Source: Oscillospiraceae bacterium (GTDB lineage Bacteria; Bacillota_A; Clostridia; Oscillospirales; Oscillospiraceae). Taken from it: 5,188 bases of DNA. This document shows positions 1-5,188 of the stretch, piece by piece. The notes beneath the pieces are model-generated. The model had not been told where the DNA came from. It did no database searches and worked only from the letters and a program-made list of their open reading frames with translations. Each line of letters starts with the position of its first letter. Positions within the stretch are counted from its first letter, which is position 1. A program made the translations under genes and the position numbers. Location: NCBI GenBank assembly GCA_017415945.1, contig JAFQDR010000164.1:1-5188 (forward strand), written 5' to 3'.

Positions 1-2316
1 GATGCCTATTGGCATTCGGATGAATTTGAATTCTATAACGAAGCACAACGTGAACGGCTGAGCCAAGCCCTGAAAGCAGAACGCTATCAGGGTGAGCGGC
101 CCCAGTTTCTTTTTGACATTCGCCCCTACCCCTATCAGCAGGAAATTTTGGACAAGTTGCTGGCAGAACGTGAAGTGCGTGGGCTGTTCAAAAACCTGGT
201 AGTTGCTGCCACCGGCACAGGCAAAACGGTCATTGCTGCACTGGACTACAAGCGTTTCTGCAAGCAAAATATTGGAAAAGCCAACAAACTTCTGTTCATC
301 GCTCACCGGGAAGAAATCCTGAAACAGAGCCGGGACACCTTCGCCGGCGTATTAAAGGACACCAATTTCGGCGAACTGTTTGTGGGCAATTACAAGCCGA
401 ACTCCTTAGATCATCTGTTTATTTCCGTGCAGACCCTCAATTCTCAGGCACTGCACACTAAACTGCCTCCGGATTATTACGACTATATTGTCATCGACGA
501 AACCCACCATGCCGCTGCCCACAGCTACGGAAAAGCATTGGAATACTTTAAACCAAAAGTGCTGCTGGGGCTGACAGCCACGCCGGAGCGCATGGATGGC
601 AAATCCATCCTGGATTATTTTGGCGGCCGCATTGCTGCTGAAATCCGCCTGCCGGAAGCCATTGACCGGAAGCTGCTTTGCCCCTTCCAATACTTCGGCG
701 TATCCGACACGGTGGACCTAAATGATCTGCACTGGGTCCGGGGCGGCTATGACAAGAGCGAATTGAGCAACCTGTACGTTTTCAGCCATTCCATTGCCCA
801 GAAACGTGCCGATCATATTCTCCGCAGTCTGGATCGTTACGTCACAGACATGAGTGATGTGCGGGCACTTGGCTTCTGTGTCTCCATCGAGCACGCCCAT
901 TTCATGGCCGATTATTTCAACACCTGCGGCGTACCTGCCATGGCCTTGGTGGGACAATCCTCCGATGAAGACCGCCGCACCGCCCGGGAACGGTTGGTCA
1001 AAGGCGAACTGCGCATCATTTTCGTGGTAGATATCTATAACGAAGGTGTGGATATTCCAGAAGTGAACACCGTCCTTTTCCTACGCCCCACCGAATCGCT
1101 CACCATTTTCCTGCAGCAGCTGGGCCGTGGTCTTCGCCTGTCGGAAGGCAAAGAATGCCTGACTGTGCTGGACTTTATCGGTGCCGCCAACCGCAAATAC
1201 AATTTCGAAGAAAAGTTCGCCGCCTTGCTTTCCAACACCCACCGCAGCGTGGAACAGGAACTGCGTCACGGCTTTATCAACGTGCCCAAAGGATGCTATA
1301 TCCAGCTGGAAAAGAAAGCATCCCAGACCATCCTGCAGAACATCCGCCAAAGCTATGGCATGCGTGCAGCATTGGTCAGCAAAATTGCTTCTTTCGAAGA
1401 AGATACCGGTTTTCCTCTGAATCTGAAAAACTTCCTCACCTATCATCACATGGATGCCCGTGTGCTGTATAGCCGTGGCTCCTTCAGCCGTCTTTGCGTG
1501 GAAGCCGGTGTAAGGGAACCCTTCACTGAACCCGCAGAGGAAGCTCTCACCAAAGCCTTCCTGCGGCTTGCCACCATCGATTCCCGTCGGTGGATCGATT
1601 TCCTGCTGGACATCCTGCCACGGCTGAACGATGTGGATTTCAGCACCCTGACCCCCATTCATCAGCAAATGCTGAATATGTTCTATGTCACCATCTGGCA
1701 AGAAGCCATTACTGATTTTTCTGCCGATACTGTGCGGGATCGTCTCTATGCCCTGGCTGACAGTCCGGTCATACTAAGCGAACTGACGGAAATGCTGCAA
1801 TACTGTAAAGACCAGATCGATTTCATTGATACCCCTTCGCCCCTGCCCTATGATTGCCCCCTGGATGTGCATTGCACCTATTCCCAGCGGCAGCTGCTGG
1901 TGGCACTGGATTATCTGAATTTCGGTGCCATGCGGCAAGGCATATTGTATCTGCCGGACAAGAAGACGGATCTGTTCCTCATCACCCTCAACAAATCCGA
2001 CAAAGACTATTCCCCTACCACCATGTACAACGATTATGCCGTCAGCCCCAGCCTTTTCCACTGGCAAAGCCAGTCCACCACCAGTGCTGATTCCCCCACT
2101 GGTCAACGGTATATCCATCACAAAGAGCGTAACGGTCATGTCCTGCTCTTTGTCCGTGAACACAAACACGATGCCTTTGGTTCTTCCTCTTACACCTTCC
2201 TGGGGACCGCCGATTACGTCAGCCACACCGGCAGCAAGCCTATGAACATCCTCTGGCACCTGCACAAGGACATCCCCGCCAAATACCTGCGCAAAACCAT
2301 GCAGGTGATGGGGTAG
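1..2316 (+). CDS. SauUSI-like type IV restriction enzyme: SF2 helicase plus DUF3427 (5' end missing)
   Basis: ATP-dependent, modification-dependent DNA restriction enzyme. The frame is open from base 1, so 771 codons are visible and the true start lies to the left. Counting from base 1, helicase motifs are: Q-motif-like RPYPYQQ (41-47), Walker A ATGTGKT (70-76), AHREE (101-105), DEAH-type DETHH (166-170), LTATPER (191-197), EGVDIP (348-353) and QQLGRGLR (372-379). All look intact. The C-terminal part, clearest from about 625 to 765, matches DUF3427 (YNDYAVSP, FHWQSQS, TGQRYIHH, LLFVRE, TFLGTADYVSHTGSKPM). In SauUSI of Staphylococcus aureus this order follows an N-terminal PLD-type nuclease, and the C-terminal region is described as SRA-like, reading 5-methyl- or 5-hydroxymethylcytosine. 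Family members are near 950-1050 residues, so roughly 200-250 residues, including the nuclease, should be off-window. Residues 1-40 resemble the usual nuclease-helicase linker. The family call is firm; the modified-cytosine specificity is inferred. Confidence 0.9.
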   Translation, partial: DAYWHSDEFEFYNEAQRERLSQALKAERYQGERPQFLFDIRPYPYQQEILDKLLAEREVRGLFKNLVVAATGTGKTVIAALDYKRFCKQNIGKANKLLFIAHREEILKQSRDTFAGVLKDTNFGELFVGNYKPNSLDHLFISVQTLNSQALHTKLPPDYYDYIVIDETHHAAAHSYGKALEYFKPKVLLGLTATPERMDGKSILDYFGGRIAAEIRLPEAIDRKLLCPFQYFGVSDTVDLNDLHWVRGGYDKSELSNLYVFSHSIAQKRADHILRSLDRYVTDMSDVRALGFCVSIEHAHFMADYFNTCGVPAMALVGQSSDEDRRTARERLVKGELRIIFVVDIYNEGVDIPEVNTVLFLRPTESLTIFLQQLGRGLRLSEGKECLTVLDFIGAANRKYNFEEKFAALLSNTHRSVEQELRHGFINVPKGCYIQLEKKASQTILQNIRQSYGMRAALVSKIASFEEDTGFPLNLKNFLTYHHMDARVLYSRGSFSRLCVEAGVREPFTEPAEEALTKAFLRLATIDSRRWIDFLLDILPRLNDVDFSTLTPIHQQMLNMFYVTIWQEAITDFSADTVRDRLYALADSPVILSELTEMLQYCKDQIDFIDTPSPLPYDCPLDVHCTYSQRQLLVALDYLNFGAMRQGILYLPDKKTDLFLITLNKSDKDYSPTTMYNDYAVSPSLFHWQSQSTTSADSPTGQRYIHHKERNGHVLLFVREHKHDAFGSSSYTFLGTADYVSHTGSKPMNILWHLHKDIPAKYLRKTMQVMG

Positions 2317-2390
2317 CAAAATAAAAGTGTGACCTCAGTGGGGGGCTGAAAAGAAAGGAGTTCTCCTTCCCCTTCCATCATGCAAATAAC

Positions 2391-2422
2391 GGACGCACGA
2401 GCCTTAGCTGGCTTGCGCTTTC
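2391..2422 (+). other. Imperfect hairpin upstream of the TIR gene
   Basis: The arms 2391-2403 and 2410-2422 pair around a six-base loop, TTAGCT. The inner six pairs (CGAGCC with GGCTTG, one G-U) are continuous. The outer part has two mismatches. No T-run follows, so it is not a normal intrinsic terminator. It overlaps the proposed -35 region and could be an operator, a weak attenuator or an mRNA 5' structure of a transcript starting further upstream. The pairing is seen directly; any function is a guess. Confidence 0.3.
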
Positions 2423-2442
2423 GTATACTGCTGTGATAGAAT
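2413..2442 (+). promoter_or_regulatory. Candidate sigma-A-type promoter for the TIR gene
   Basis: An extended -10 element, TGATAGAAT (TG at 2434-2435, hexamer TAGAAT at 2437-2442), lies 36 bases before the start codon. The best -35 is a poor TTGCGC at 2413-2418, with an 18-base spacer. A second -10-like hexamer, TATACT, sits at 2424-2429 but has no convincing -35. If real, the TIR gene has its own promoter and does not depend only on read-through from the restriction gene. Confidence 0.35.
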
Positions 2443-2467
2443 GGAAGTAACAAAACTAAATGCTTAC

Positions 2468-2472
2468 AGGAG
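2468..2472 (+). promoter_or_regulatory. Ribosome binding site of the TIR gene
   Basis: AGGAG lies six bases before the ATG at 2479, an optimal spacing. An in-frame TAG at 2437-2439 with no other ATG in between makes 2479 the first available ATG start, so this site fixes the N-terminus. Confidence 0.85.
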
Positions 2473-2478
2473 CAACGT

Positions 2479-4263
2479 ATGGAAACCGCATTTGACCGAA
2501 ATCACAGCTGGCAGCAGAACAGAATCTGGGAAAGCATTCCTGTGCAGGTGGGAGAGGAATGCTTTAATCTGCACGAGAGGTATGGTTGCCCGCACCTTCT
2601 CTTTGCCCATGATGATCAGAAGATGCTGACCGATTTCATGCTGGCCTTCCTATCTGATGCCGCAGACCGATACAGCCCCGATGACATCCGCTTTTTCGTC
2701 ATTGACATGGGCGACGGACGCTTGTACCGGCAGGCGCAGAACCTTCCCCACTTTACCGGCGGCATTCAAAGCGATACGGAATGGAATGGAGCCATGTACC
2801 TGCTGGGGGAAGAAACCAGAAGGCGCAGTGCTTTGGTCCGAAATCAGGGGAGAGACGGGTACGCCTGTGCAAAGGCATATCATAAGGCATATCATGAGGG
2901 TACCGTCTCTGAACCGCTGCCCCAGCTGCTGGTGTTGGTAAACGGCTGCGACCATTATGGTCCCTCAACGGTGCAGCAGTATGCTGAATTGACTTCCATC
3001 ATCCGTCAGTGTCGATCTCTCAACGTCAATCAGGTCATGGCGGTGAACACCACGGAATGGGATTCAATGCTCGCAACCAATACACGCCAGTTCCTGCTGA
3101 AGAATATCGGTTCTCAACAGGAAAGCTGGCGCGCAGATGCAGCCCGTACCCTCTCTGCCTACCGCACTGACCCCGCCTTGCAGCGGTTGAAGCAACGGCT
3201 GCTGCTGGATGACCGCCGCTGGCATTGGGACATTCGCACGGAGGATGGAGAAGCAAAAACACTGGAGCTGATTTGCGGCAACCTATGCGACCTTCAGTCA
3301 GAGAGTGATGTGGTGGTGTGCTCCGCCTTCAAGGGCGATTATATCCCCAGCCGCACCAGCCTGATCGGCGCGCTGAGCAGCAAGCGAGGCATCGACGTGG
3401 AGCAGCTAGCTCAGCAACCAGAATTGGATTTCCGCAGCAACGGCTGCTGGCTGTCCAGGGATACAGGCACAGCTTATCGCCGTATCGCTTGTGTTGAGCT
3501 GATCAGCTTCCGGGATTCCTGGCGGAATGAAGAACAGGCCTACAATACTATTATTCAGAAATCCTTCTCCACACTACGTTACCTGCTGGAGCAGGCGTAT
3601 TTTTCCAGCATCCAGGTGAATACCATCGCCCTGCCGCTGCTGGGCACAGGCAATCAGGGTATTGACCTGACCTTTGTCTCCACACCTTTGCTGACCCAGT
3701 GTAAGTCCATCCTGCAGACGAATCCTGGAGTGCAGTGCATACGCATCTATGAGCAGGATGCAGACAAGGCAAGCGCCATGGCCGAGCTGATGACCAAAAT
3801 GCTCGCCCCCGCAAGTAGAACCTGTCAGGTATTCATCAGCTACAGTTCCAAGCAGGAGGATATCGCCACGGATATCCGCAACACACTGGAAAGCAACTCC
3901 ATCTCCTGTTGGATGGCACCCGACTCGATCCCCACGGGGGATAACTATCTGTCGGTTATCCCCCTCGCCTTGGAGCAGGTGGATGTATTGCTGCTCATTC
4001 TGACGCCCGATTCGGAAAGCTCCCGTTGGGTGCAAAAAGAGGTGGGGTCCGCTGTCGGTGCGGATAAGAAGTTGCTGCCCTATCAGCTGGAAAGATTTGA
4101 GCTGACTAAAGAATTCCGCTTCTTACTGAATGGAGAGCAGATCATGTACCGGCAGGAACCACTGATGTCGATCATCCCCAGCGATGCCACAGCCAATCGG
4201 TACCCGCTGCTGGTGGCTGAGGTGCAACGATTGCTTGCGGAAAAACGGCCAAACACGCTATAA
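2479..4263 (+). CDS. TIR-domain defence protein with degenerate FtsK/EssC-like and macro-like domains
   Basis: A 594-residue, probably cytosolic protein with no signal peptide or membrane segment. Three parts are visible. (1) Residues 14-211 follow the FtsK/SpoIIIE pattern as found in EssC of type VII secretion: IPVQVG (20-25), PHLLFA (38-43), RYSPDDIRFFVID (64-76), NLPHFTGGI (88-96), a helix with RRR, EPLPQLLVLV (145-154). The Walker A position reads HDDQKMLT and the Walker B end reads VNGCD, so ATP hydrolysis is unlikely. (2) Residues 262-442 look like a divergent macro-type fold: LICGNLCDL near the start, TSLIGAL (293-299), CWLS (323-326), LPLLGTGNQG (385-394). (3) Residues 449-556 are a TIR domain: VFISYSSK (451-458), ISCWMAPDSIPTG (475-487), SRWVQKE (515-521). 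E521 sits at the catalytic glutamate position of NAD+-cleaving TIR domains. Inferred role: infection-triggered NAD+ cleavage or ADP-ribose-type signalling. TIR is certain, the FtsK/EssC relation likely, the macro relation moderate. Confidence 0.88.
   Translation: METAFDRNHSWQQNRIWESIPVQVGEECFNLHERYGCPHLLFAHDDQKMLTDFMLAFLSDAADRYSPDDIRFFVIDMGDGRLYRQAQNLPHFTGGIQSDTEWNGAMYLLGEETRRRSALVRNQGRDGYACAKAYHKAYHEGTVSEPLPQLLVLVNGCDHYGPSTVQQYAELTSIIRQCRSLNVNQVMAVNTTEWDSMLATNTRQFLLKNIGSQQESWRADAARTLSAYRTDPALQRLKQRLLLDDRRWHWDIRTEDGEAKTLELICGNLCDLQSESDVVVCSAFKGDYIPSRTSLIGALSSKRGIDVEQLAQQPELDFRSNGCWLSRDTGTAYRRIACVELISFRDSWRNEEQAYNTIIQKSFSTLRYLLEQAYFSSIQVNTIALPLLGTGNQGIDLTFVSTPLLTQCKSILQTNPGVQCIRIYEQDADKASAMAELMTKMLAPASRTCQVFISYSSKQEDIATDIRNTLESNSISCWMAPDSIPTGDNYLSVIPLALEQVDVLLLILTPDSESSRWVQKEVGSAVGADKKLLPYQLERFELTKEFRFLLNGEQIMYRQEPLMSIIPSDATANRYPLLVAEVQRLLAEKRPNTL
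2872..2895 (+). repeat. Perfect 12-base in-frame tandem duplication
   Basis: The unit AAGGCATATCAT occurs twice back to back (2872-2883 and 2884-2895). It encodes KAYH-KAYH at residues 132-139 of the TIR protein, in the loop or helix just before the degenerate Walker B strand. Both copies are identical at DNA level, which suggests a recent slippage duplication. A change in copy number would keep the frame. Confidence 0.9.
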
Positions 4264-4413
4264 ACCGAAATGATGTCAGAGAGACCCCTCCTCCAATACT
4301 TGTTTTGAAATCAGCAATGTGTATGGCGGTTTTAGATATGTGTTGCAATGGGAGAGGGCGCAATTATACGCACCGTTCTGTTGCATTGCGTTTGTTGGGC
4401 CACATAAGCAAAT

Positions 4414-4448
4414 GAGCATCCGGTATTAGTACCGGATGCTCGTCTTTT
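4414..4448 (+). terminator. Strong hairpin terminator between convergent genes
   Basis: A perfect 12-base stem (GAGCATCCGGTA at 4414-4425 and TACCGGATGCTC at 4430-4441) encloses the tetraloop TTAG and is followed by GTCTTTT. It lies 150 bases after the TIR gene stop and about 70 bases after the hsdR stop on the other strand. The plus-strand T-tract is modest, and on the minus strand only a weak ATTTGCTTAT tail follows. It may serve both convergent genes but fits the plus strand better. Confidence 0.75.
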
Positions 4449-4512
4449 CTCGTTGTGGGATAAATTGTTCCTTAAGAAGCATCCCTCCACGGCCACGCTT
4501 TTATTTTTCACA

Positions 4513-5188
4513 TTATCCCGCCACAGCGTTCTCGTTAATCTGCTTGATCACCGAGCGGATCCCCTGCCAGACAGTCAGATCGGTGAAAATTTCCACCACA
4601 CTGCCCTGATCGGTAAAAGGCGTTTCCTGCAAGACGGACATATCTTTCAGCAATCCGTTATGGACAATATATTCCACAATCTGATTGACAAAATAGATCT
4701 GCCTGCTGTCCAGCGTAGAATCGTTGAGGAATTCGGCAAAGGCTTCTTTCGCCGCATTCATATCCAGGCCAACAATTTCACGCACAAATTCGCCCAACGG
4801 TTTCTTGCCATACTCTGCTTCGTATTCGGCCTGGGTACCCACTTCGCTCCAAAGAATCTGCTCCAATGCTTTTACGTCGGTTTCTGTCAGCGGTACATTC
4901 TTCTTTAGCTTGGCAATCACCAAATGATCTGCATGCTGGCGAACATAGAATTCAGCTTTTGCTTTGTAATTTTTCAGATCATCATTTTCCAGTTCTGATT
5001 CGTGCCAGTCAAGTGTCAGAATTTCGTCAGTAAAATGCGTAAGGTACGAATCACCGGTATGCGGAATATACTTCATCAGATTCCGCAAATTTTCACGGAT
5101 GTGCTCAAACTCATTGATCCCTGCTTGTTCCAAATAATCGGTATGCAGTATTTTGTTCATCAACTCCGTCTGCACCATGATCTCCGGA
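4513..5188 (-). CDS. hsdR: Type I restriction enzyme R subunit, C-terminal end (5' end missing)
   Basis: This is the distal part of the ATP-dependent DNA-translocating and cleaving subunit of a type I restriction-modification complex, which works with HsdM and HsdS. The frame runs from the right edge to TAA at 4513-4515. An internal ATG at 5176-5178 is preceded by open codons (P-E-I), so it is probably not the true start; at least 224 codons are visible. The sequence matches the EcoEI-type R-subunit C-terminal domain. Counting from that ATG, the typical segments are VPLTETDVKALEQILW (95-110), KKPLGEFVREIVGLD (125-139), AKEAFAEFLND (143-153), QIYFVNQIVEYIVHNG (160-175) and PFTDQGSVVEIF (187-198). 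In the complete enzyme the PD-(D/E)xK nuclease and SF2 motor lie N-terminal to this, here off-window. This domain helps assemble R onto the methylase core. hsdM and hsdS are expected upstream, to the right, but are not visible. A stand-alone 221-residue fragment cannot be excluded. Confidence 0.85.
   Translation of the reverse strand, partial: PEIMVQTELMNKILHTDYLEQAGINEFEHIRENLRNLMKYIPHTGDSYLTHFTDEILTLDWHESELENDDLKNYKAKAEFYVRQHADHLVIAKLKKNVPLTETDVKALEQILWSEVGTQAEYEAEYGKKPLGEFVREIVGLDMNAAKEAFAEFLNDSTLDSRQIYFVNQIVEYIVHNGLLKDMSVLQETPFTDQGSVVEIFTDLTVWQGIRSVIKQINENAVAG

Follow-up and report, generated by a model that had tools for sequence, protein, structure and literature searches.

A macro-TIR protein fronted by an EssC-type pseudo-ATPase, and the exchange of front domains on its conserved core

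TIR enzymes of bacteria are phage sensors or effectors, and for many families the targets of the domains in front of the TIR part are an open question. In type VII secretion EssC is the motor and the WXG100 proteins are the substrate; these WXG100 substrates are bound by EssC-type ATPases. TIR enzymes that cleave nicotinamide adenine dinucleotide (NAD+; NADases) are active once brought together (PMC12847820, PMC11204291). The N-terminal domain of SpbK clusters on the phage portal, which provides a precedent for such crowding (PMC12847820), and in the transmembrane (TM)-macro ThsA the macro domain binds nucleotides of the ADP-ribose type and oligomerises (PMC11204291). Conflict systems made up of several genes are known to include inactive FtsK domains as well as TIR and macro domains (PMC7159879, PMC8195603). 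Here we analyse a gene in a stretch of 5,188 nucleotides from an Oscillospiraceae bacterium (assembly GCA_017415945.1, contig JAFQDR010000164.1, positions 1 to 5,188; the whole stretch is referred to as the window), which encodes, in a single chain, a dead ATPase domain of the EssC type followed by macro and TIR domains. The kind of protein is known; the EssC-macro-TIR fusion is new.

The gene (2479..4263, + strand) is a single frame of 594 amino acids with an ATG start and without internal stop. Residues 1–245 (2479..3213) are an EssC/EccC-type ATPase fold that lacks the Walker motifs, residues ∼246–445 (3214..3813) are a macro fold with the loop LGTGNQ at 388–393 and the residues D277, S282 and W324, and residues 448–588 (3820..4242) form a TIR domain whose catalytic glutamate is E521 (codon 4039–4041). 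These boundaries, set by profile and fold evidence, confirm the three domains in one frame that had been proposed earlier from the DNA letters (the sequence-only reading). The protein was compared with the closest described systems. It shares with type II Thoeris a TIR enzyme, a macro domain and, by analogy, nucleotides of the ADP-ribose type, but in that system the macro domain sits in ThsA, a protein of its own that has transmembrane helices (PMC11204291), whereas here all parts reside in one chain behind an EssC front. The gene pair of type II Thoeris (TM-macro ThsA beside the TIR gene ThsB) was not found at the locus, the neighbours in the window being a helicase and a restriction subunit, and a SIR2-SLOG ThsA of type I Thoeris was absent from these two neighbours. 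The ThsB models of PADLOC match within residues 424–551 with E-values of 2.4e-8 or weaker, and no PADLOC match begins before residue 424. ThsA_Macro gave no match in 12 genomes, which is uninformative, as the control genomes gave none either. SpbK-type TIR NADases likewise consist of an N-terminal recognition domain and a C-terminal TIR encoded by a single gene, but the window protein adds a macro domain and its front is a dead EssC ATPase. The von Willebrand factor A (vWA) ternary and related conflict systems (PMC7159879, PMC8195603) also draw on FtsK-family ATPases that are inactive and on TIR and macro domains, but as alternative parts of multi-gene systems; a fusion is not described in the accessible portions of these papers. 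None of the scanned PADLOC, NCBIfam and Pfam models covers the whole architecture, in line with the sequence-only reading that no named system applies: setting aside weak matches to HEAT and DarG, only the EssC-like or the TIR part is hit. Searches of open-licence papers yielded no description of a macro-TIR protein fronted by EssC, WXG100 or FtsK.

The origin of the first domain was assessed with a profile built from the fronts of the 17 long forms (EssC-macro-TIR proteins, the window protein among them), which was run against three EssC proteins, protein P0082 and three FtsK-type proteins. The best target was ATPase domain 1 of EssC (independent E-values of 8.3e-39 to 6.8e-35 for the three proteins), followed by the EssC-like motor of P0082 (1.4e-32), ordinary FtsK (6.7e-21), the TIR-FtsK-TIR proteins (4.8e-16 and 2.1e-14) and EssC domain 2 (6.7e-13 to 1.4e-9). 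An FtsK origin is ruled out, since EssC domain 1 scores far better. When the 17 fronts were aligned to EssC domain 1, Walker A (GxxxxGK[ST]) was kept in none and Walker B (DE) in none; in the window protein HDDQKMLT stands in the place of GTTGSGKS and VLVNGCDH in the place of IVDEFAE. The FtsK/EssC-like pseudo-ATPase of the sequence-only reading is thereby borne out and narrowed to EssC ATPase domain 1. For the reverse search the profile was built from six sequences of EssC domain 1, half of them taken from the phage collection, and all 17 fronts scored above all 340 shuffled copies, of which the best reached an E-value of 1.3. Thirteen fronts were found at 1.1e-14 or better (4.3e-23 for the window front); the weaker ones were P0025 (7.6e-8), P0019 (2.6e-7), P0015 (6.5e-5) and P0020 (0.0097). 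With residues 1–245 alone as query, the search recovered the query protein and the two relatives nearest to it, and at that sensitivity no other type of protein with the dead domain. The known EssC/EccC/YukB proteins differ from the window protein in that the latter has a single ATPase domain and no membrane part.

Given that the motor motifs are lost and that the presence of the front has changed at least five times within one clade (see below), the first domain might be a functionless fossil on a macro-TIR core that alone matters. We consider this quite unlikely: the fold is predicted at high confidence (mean predicted local distance difference test, pLDDT, of 87–95 per ten-residue block for residues 21–120 of the window protein), and the long forms retain the domain at overall identities of 33–84%. 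The sequence-only reading also suggested that the EssC-like part could serve as a decoy for the packaging or translocation motor of a phage; this has fared less well and is now very unlikely. TIR proteins can sense structural parts of phages, as SpbK does the portal (PMC12847820), and restriction genes lie on both sides of the gene, but the front is closest to EssC domain 1 and the fold-search matches listed contain no terminase or portal, which is itself no proof. Moreover, two scans of viral contigs and a scan of plasmid records gave no relative of the architecture, the three matches to the first domain in the phage collection all lie in full-length EssC-type proteins and not in packaging motors, and the WXG100-like fronts described below do not suit a packaging decoy.

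The macro-TIR core was aligned for 106 proteins, including that of the window. E521, which the sequence-only reading had picked as the key glutamate, is invariant (106/106), as are S282, W324, G391 and S454; D277 is present in 104 and Q393 in 101 of the proteins. From the conservation of these residues we conclude that strong constraint acts on the core, both at the TIR active site and in the near-invariant macro loop. Residue 268, equated by eye with the site of the adenine-binding aspartate of macro domains (D83 in EcThsA; PMC11204291), is D in 78 proteins, N in 16 (the window protein included), S in 11 and E in one. The window protein was not matched up to an E-value of 10 by the Pfam families Macro (PF01661) and ThsA_Macro (PF20016), a search in which filters may drop very weak matches, and the core profile matched two canonical macro proteins weakly. 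The lack of a PF01661 match weakens the assignment to the sequence family only, the fold being divergent. By hydropathy alone, the maximum of the protein (19 residues, 491–509, mean 1.92) falls within the predicted TIR fold (helix 490–500, strand 503–508). By analogy with type II Thoeris, the macro domain is a putative binder of an ADP-ribose-type nucleotide and could bind the product of the TIR domain.

The first protein search gave 101 matches and a second, made with a broader alignment, 30. The 106 proteins include ten locus proteins; P0082–P0101 and P0117–P0120 were kept out as TIR-only by coverage, and the loci L001, L002, L003 as first fetched, L006 and L089 (which has a masked stretch) lie outside the alignment, with L003–L005 represented by the genome copies L092, L093 and L091. 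Sorting of the fronts by eye, aided by Pfam, gave 17 EssC, 14 helical, four TIR, three zinc-ribbon and one canonical macro front, and in the remaining 67 proteins the front was short or absent (≤64 residues by alignment). The zinc-ribbon matches are under the Pfam cut-offs, and that of P0115 was assigned by eye. The TIR-macro-TIR proteins are P0062, P0104, P0107 and P0109 (three by Pfam, P0107 by eye and by its place in the tree), and in P0112 a canonical macro domain (PF01661, E-value 2e-27) is fused ahead of the macro-TIR part. Short forms could in part result from mis-called starts, but these are unlikely as a general cause because P0006 has 24 member sequences. Macro-TIR is the constant core of this family and the front its exchangeable part, which is a new finding of this analysis. 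The relatives are mostly from gut Clostridia, and a gut bacterium is also the probable source of the window gene; one relative is from a metagenome-assembled genome labelled Bacteroides.

Membership of the helical group was first decided by eye and then tested. Pfam WXG100 was found above its cut-off in the front of P0022 (E-value 3.4e-10) and below it in the L091 protein, P0102, P0103 and P0108 (1.8e-4 to 1.2e-3); in P0111 the only match lies elsewhere in the protein (0.22), and none was obtained for P0054, P0056, P0073, P0074, P0076, P0105, P0106 and P0113. Three type VII loci (L087, L122 and L123) supplied seven WXG100 proteins for a profile, with which 9 of the 13 other helical fronts scored higher than any of 260 shuffles and any of 60 core controls; the L091 protein and P0102, both in the helical set, are near-identical copies. 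The profile-profile probability for the helical fronts versus WXG100 was 79.7%. The pattern W-x-G-x-[AS], picked after the sequences had been seen, occurs in 10 of the 14 fronts (mean of 0.23 in shuffled sequences, with 0 of 2000 as high). In the model of P0076, helices are predicted at 2–26, 37–61, 66–87 and 93–116, with W-S-G at 90–92 in the turn ahead of the last helix, and this predicted front resembles a WXG100 hairpin. A profile of six helical fronts gave no significant match among PDB sequences (a designed repeat protein at 0.038 and EsxA second at 0.32), and the matches listed in structure searches with the P0076 model all belong to the macro and TIR parts. EssC and WXG100-like fronts occur on one and the same core, as many sequences attest. 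The WXG100-like module at the same place in some relatives strengthens, by homology, the connection with type VII secretion that the sequence-only reading had raised through the EssC-like part, and overall that interpretation is partly supported.

The history of the fronts was followed in a careful tree of 42 rows, next to a quick tree of all 106. In the former, 17 EssC-fronted proteins and 16 others form one clade (support 100/99), within which the EssC-fronted P0020 and the WXG100-fronted P0022 are sisters (100/99). The well-supported branches force at least five changes of the front label, and a single clade for all EssC fronts is ruled out by the approximately unbiased (AU) test (p 8e-49), for which the group was fixed by domain, the quick tree having been seen beforehand. 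Because of these changes and the AU rejection we conclude that the front has been gained, lost or exchanged repeatedly on one core.

Our preferred explanation, held tentatively and by analogy with SpbK and ThsA, is that the gene encodes a single-gene TIR NADase of the kind that serves bacterial immunity, in which the dead EssC front was retained as a binding or clustering surface after loss of the motor motifs; it is this analogy that leads us to expect an NADase. We infer the following course for the trigger, the catalytic steps, the nucleotide and the defence role. At rest the TIR domains would be separate. The front would then engage, or assemble on, a partner and crowd several chains, upon which the TIR domains would associate and E521 would cleave NAD+. 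The macro domain may bind the ADP-ribose-type product and reinforce the assembly, as in TM-macro ThsA, or tune it, and the loss of NAD+ would halt the cell. The partner would most probably be sought among type VII-secretion-type proteins or other machinery of the EssC/FtsK family, whether the cell's own, incoming from a competitor or carried on a mobile element. Fronts are drawn from the EssC or the WXG100 side of type VII secretion, and type VII proteins are therefore suggested as partner; the link is one of homology. The title of PDB entry 4n1a, found in the fold search, names EccC with a signal sequence peptide, which agrees with binding of substrates by EssC. An exchange of fronts between two parts of one secretion machine that touch each other makes the partner proposal concrete and testable.

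The same exchange can be read in another way, namely that the dead EssC domain is an assembly scaffold only, with the rings that FtsK/EssC domains form, or the helical bundles of WXG100 modules, setting the number of TIR domains and the macro domain sensing a nucleotide. The front can be exchanged, and 67 of the 106 proteins have a short one or none, while the macro loop is near-invariant, which would place sensing in the core, and 10 of 13 carrier genomes have no EssC above the cut-off. Generic scaffolds would, on the other hand, not be expected to come from two interacting parts of one secretion system. We regard this alternative as possible, though improbable as it stands; if the fronts were mere scaffolds, evolution would have re-used a dead motor as a clustering device. 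Returning to the immune-type NADase with a partner-binding front, sensing of foreign type VII components (toxins of competitors, loci on mobile elements) would fit both the types of front and the EssC-poor carriers. A doubtful extension of this idea is that the proteins form an immune family of gut Clostridia and their relatives, with a dead EssC ATPase or a WXG100 module attached to the macro-TIR core, in which type VII contact or incoming toxins, and not phage, trigger the loss of NAD+ or a nucleotide signal from the TIR domain. If true, it would represent innate sensing of interbacterial attack or of type VII systems borne on mobile elements, and a correct type VII reading would extend TIR immunity from phage to contact with secretion systems.

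The macro-TIR proteins could also belong to type VII secretion itself, the WXG-fronted ones as exported NADase toxins and the EssC-fronted ones as a cytoplasmic loader or guard. A C-terminal enzyme behind a WXG-type front is reminiscent of LXG toxins, and one of these, Tac1, cleaves NAD+ (PMC12356396), but the likeness in type VII-type front and NAD+-consuming C-terminus holds for the WXG-fronted relatives only. The window protein is EssC-fronted, and an EssC ATPase domain is no secretion signal. LXG toxins are accompanied by Lap and immunity genes (PMC12356396), and none is found beside the window gene; the WXG-fronted gene of L091 is flanked by a mannosyltransferase-like gene on one side and a ComM-type gene on the other, in a genome (G005) without EssC above the cut-off. 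We judge this alternative unlikely.

The occurrence of the family was determined in several scans. The scan of the whole genome collection gave 66 loci, six of which (L001–L006) extend clearly into the macro region. Among genome samples, macro-TIR was found in 3 of 397, 2 of 391, 3 of 200 and 1 of 146 genomes, counts that include the seed genomes G001, G005 (twice) and G002, and, with the limit tightened to 1e-60, in none of 394. The 391-genome sample gave five additional matches at a limit of 1e-30, to the TIR part only, and macro-TIR was also present in 2 of the 7 genomes reached via TIR loci. EssC above the cut-off was found in 3 of 13 macro-TIR genomes and in 9 of 196 class genomes drawn around G005 (one-sided Fisher p 0.03, from small numbers and sets that are unmatched for kinship and share G005).

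A number of observations weigh against the immune-type NADase with a type VII-directed front. Besides the small and overlapping sets behind the last comparison, the macro-TIR proteins of the three genomes that have EssC are short or zinc-ribbon forms. The other 10 of the 13 have no EssC above the cut-off, and this makes dependence on a type VII system of their own doubtful; they include G005, the only one of the 13 with a WXG-like front. Three EssC contigs (G001:C15, G232:C12 and G786:C93) have no macro-TIR match among the genome-wide matches. The WXG100 profile does not separate four of the 13 helical fronts (P0113, P0106, P0056 and P0074) from the controls. The EssC front is absent from 16 of the 33 members of the clade, and the exchange between EssC and WXG100 sisters is seen in a single pair, in which P0020 has the weakest EssC front and P0022 is one sequence on a contig of 2766 bases. 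Furthermore, the EssC front does not occur among L001–L006 nor the long form in the sampled genomes, so that its neighbourhood is known from the window alone. The sequence-only reading had proposed looking for the full architecture elsewhere and for defence genes beside it; the former brought the long forms to 17, the window protein included, but the neighbours of the relatives in the scanned loci are ordinary. By Pfam, the seven immediate neighbours at L086, L088, L091, L092 and L093 are of the amidohydrolase, ComM-type Mg chelatase, B12-binding, phosphofructokinase, acetyltransferase, MatE and permease types, and the eighth, at L091, is mannosyltransferase-like. The only PADLOC defence matches among these eight are weak ones of BrxL and RtcR to the ComM-type ATPase.

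The window holds three genes, of which the EssC-macro-TIR gene is the middle one, and both Pfam and PADLOC confirm the flanking restriction genes of the sequence-only reading. Upstream, on the same strand and 162 bp away, lies a helicase with ResIII, Helicase_C and DUF3427 domains (1..2316, +; Pfam), truncated by the window start and matched by the PADLOC model mREase_IV (E-value 3.5e-189). Downstream, in convergent orientation, a type I restriction subunit is represented by its C-terminal part (4513..5187, −; EcoEI_R_C, Pfam E-value 5.9e-21; PADLOC REase_I, 3.7e-11). A Shine-Dalgarno-like AGGAG (2468..2472, +), read off the sequence, ends 6 nt 5′ of the ATG. No sigma-70-like promoter was found in 2250–4560. 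A terminator-like 14-bp stem (4412..4443, strand not assigned) is located between the convergent genes; the scanned stretch contains six terminator-like sites, against 2.1 (standard deviation 1.6) in shuffles.

Some related genes and loci deserve mention. The zinc-ribbon form at L090 has genes for a MobA relaxase, for a serine recombinase and for TIR with leucine-rich repeats upstream of it, and its macro-TIR gene ends 25 bp ahead of a canonical macro gene. Canonical macro genes on the same strand as a macro-TIR gene are found at L090:14491-15003(+) and L121:1845-2906(−), at distances of 25 and 18 bp, respectively; a canonical macro protein beside, or fused to, macro-TIR could possibly be an off-switch or a partner enzyme. 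TIR is joined to BspA-type leucine-rich repeats at L090:8427-10016(+) and L113:1-1324(−), the former frame having a CutA1 domain in addition. P0015 and P0019, both EssC-macro-TIR forms, have a hydrophobic and possibly transmembrane C-terminal end, and P0016 carries ∼240 additional C-terminal residues without Pfam match. In P0082 a TIR domain precedes an EssC-like motor whose Walker A is intact (GPTRSGKT); the domain order of the window protein is reversed there, and the motor is apparently live. The TIR-FtsK-TIR proteins, L112:408-3086(+) of 892 and L113:1490-3988(+) of 832 amino acids, contain the FtsK parts alpha, motor (with intact Walker A) and gamma, and their genomes (G004 and G002) also contain short macro-TIR genes. 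The type VII locus L087/L124 (contig C15 of G001) has several WXG100 genes nearby and, as named by eye, zinc-ribbon kinase-like genes, a LytTR-like regulator and a vWA-like gene. EssC-type genes are also present in the phage-filed records L125, L126 and L127 (Streptococcus phage phi-SsuFJNP8_rum), the last of which annotates an EssB/YukC component as well.

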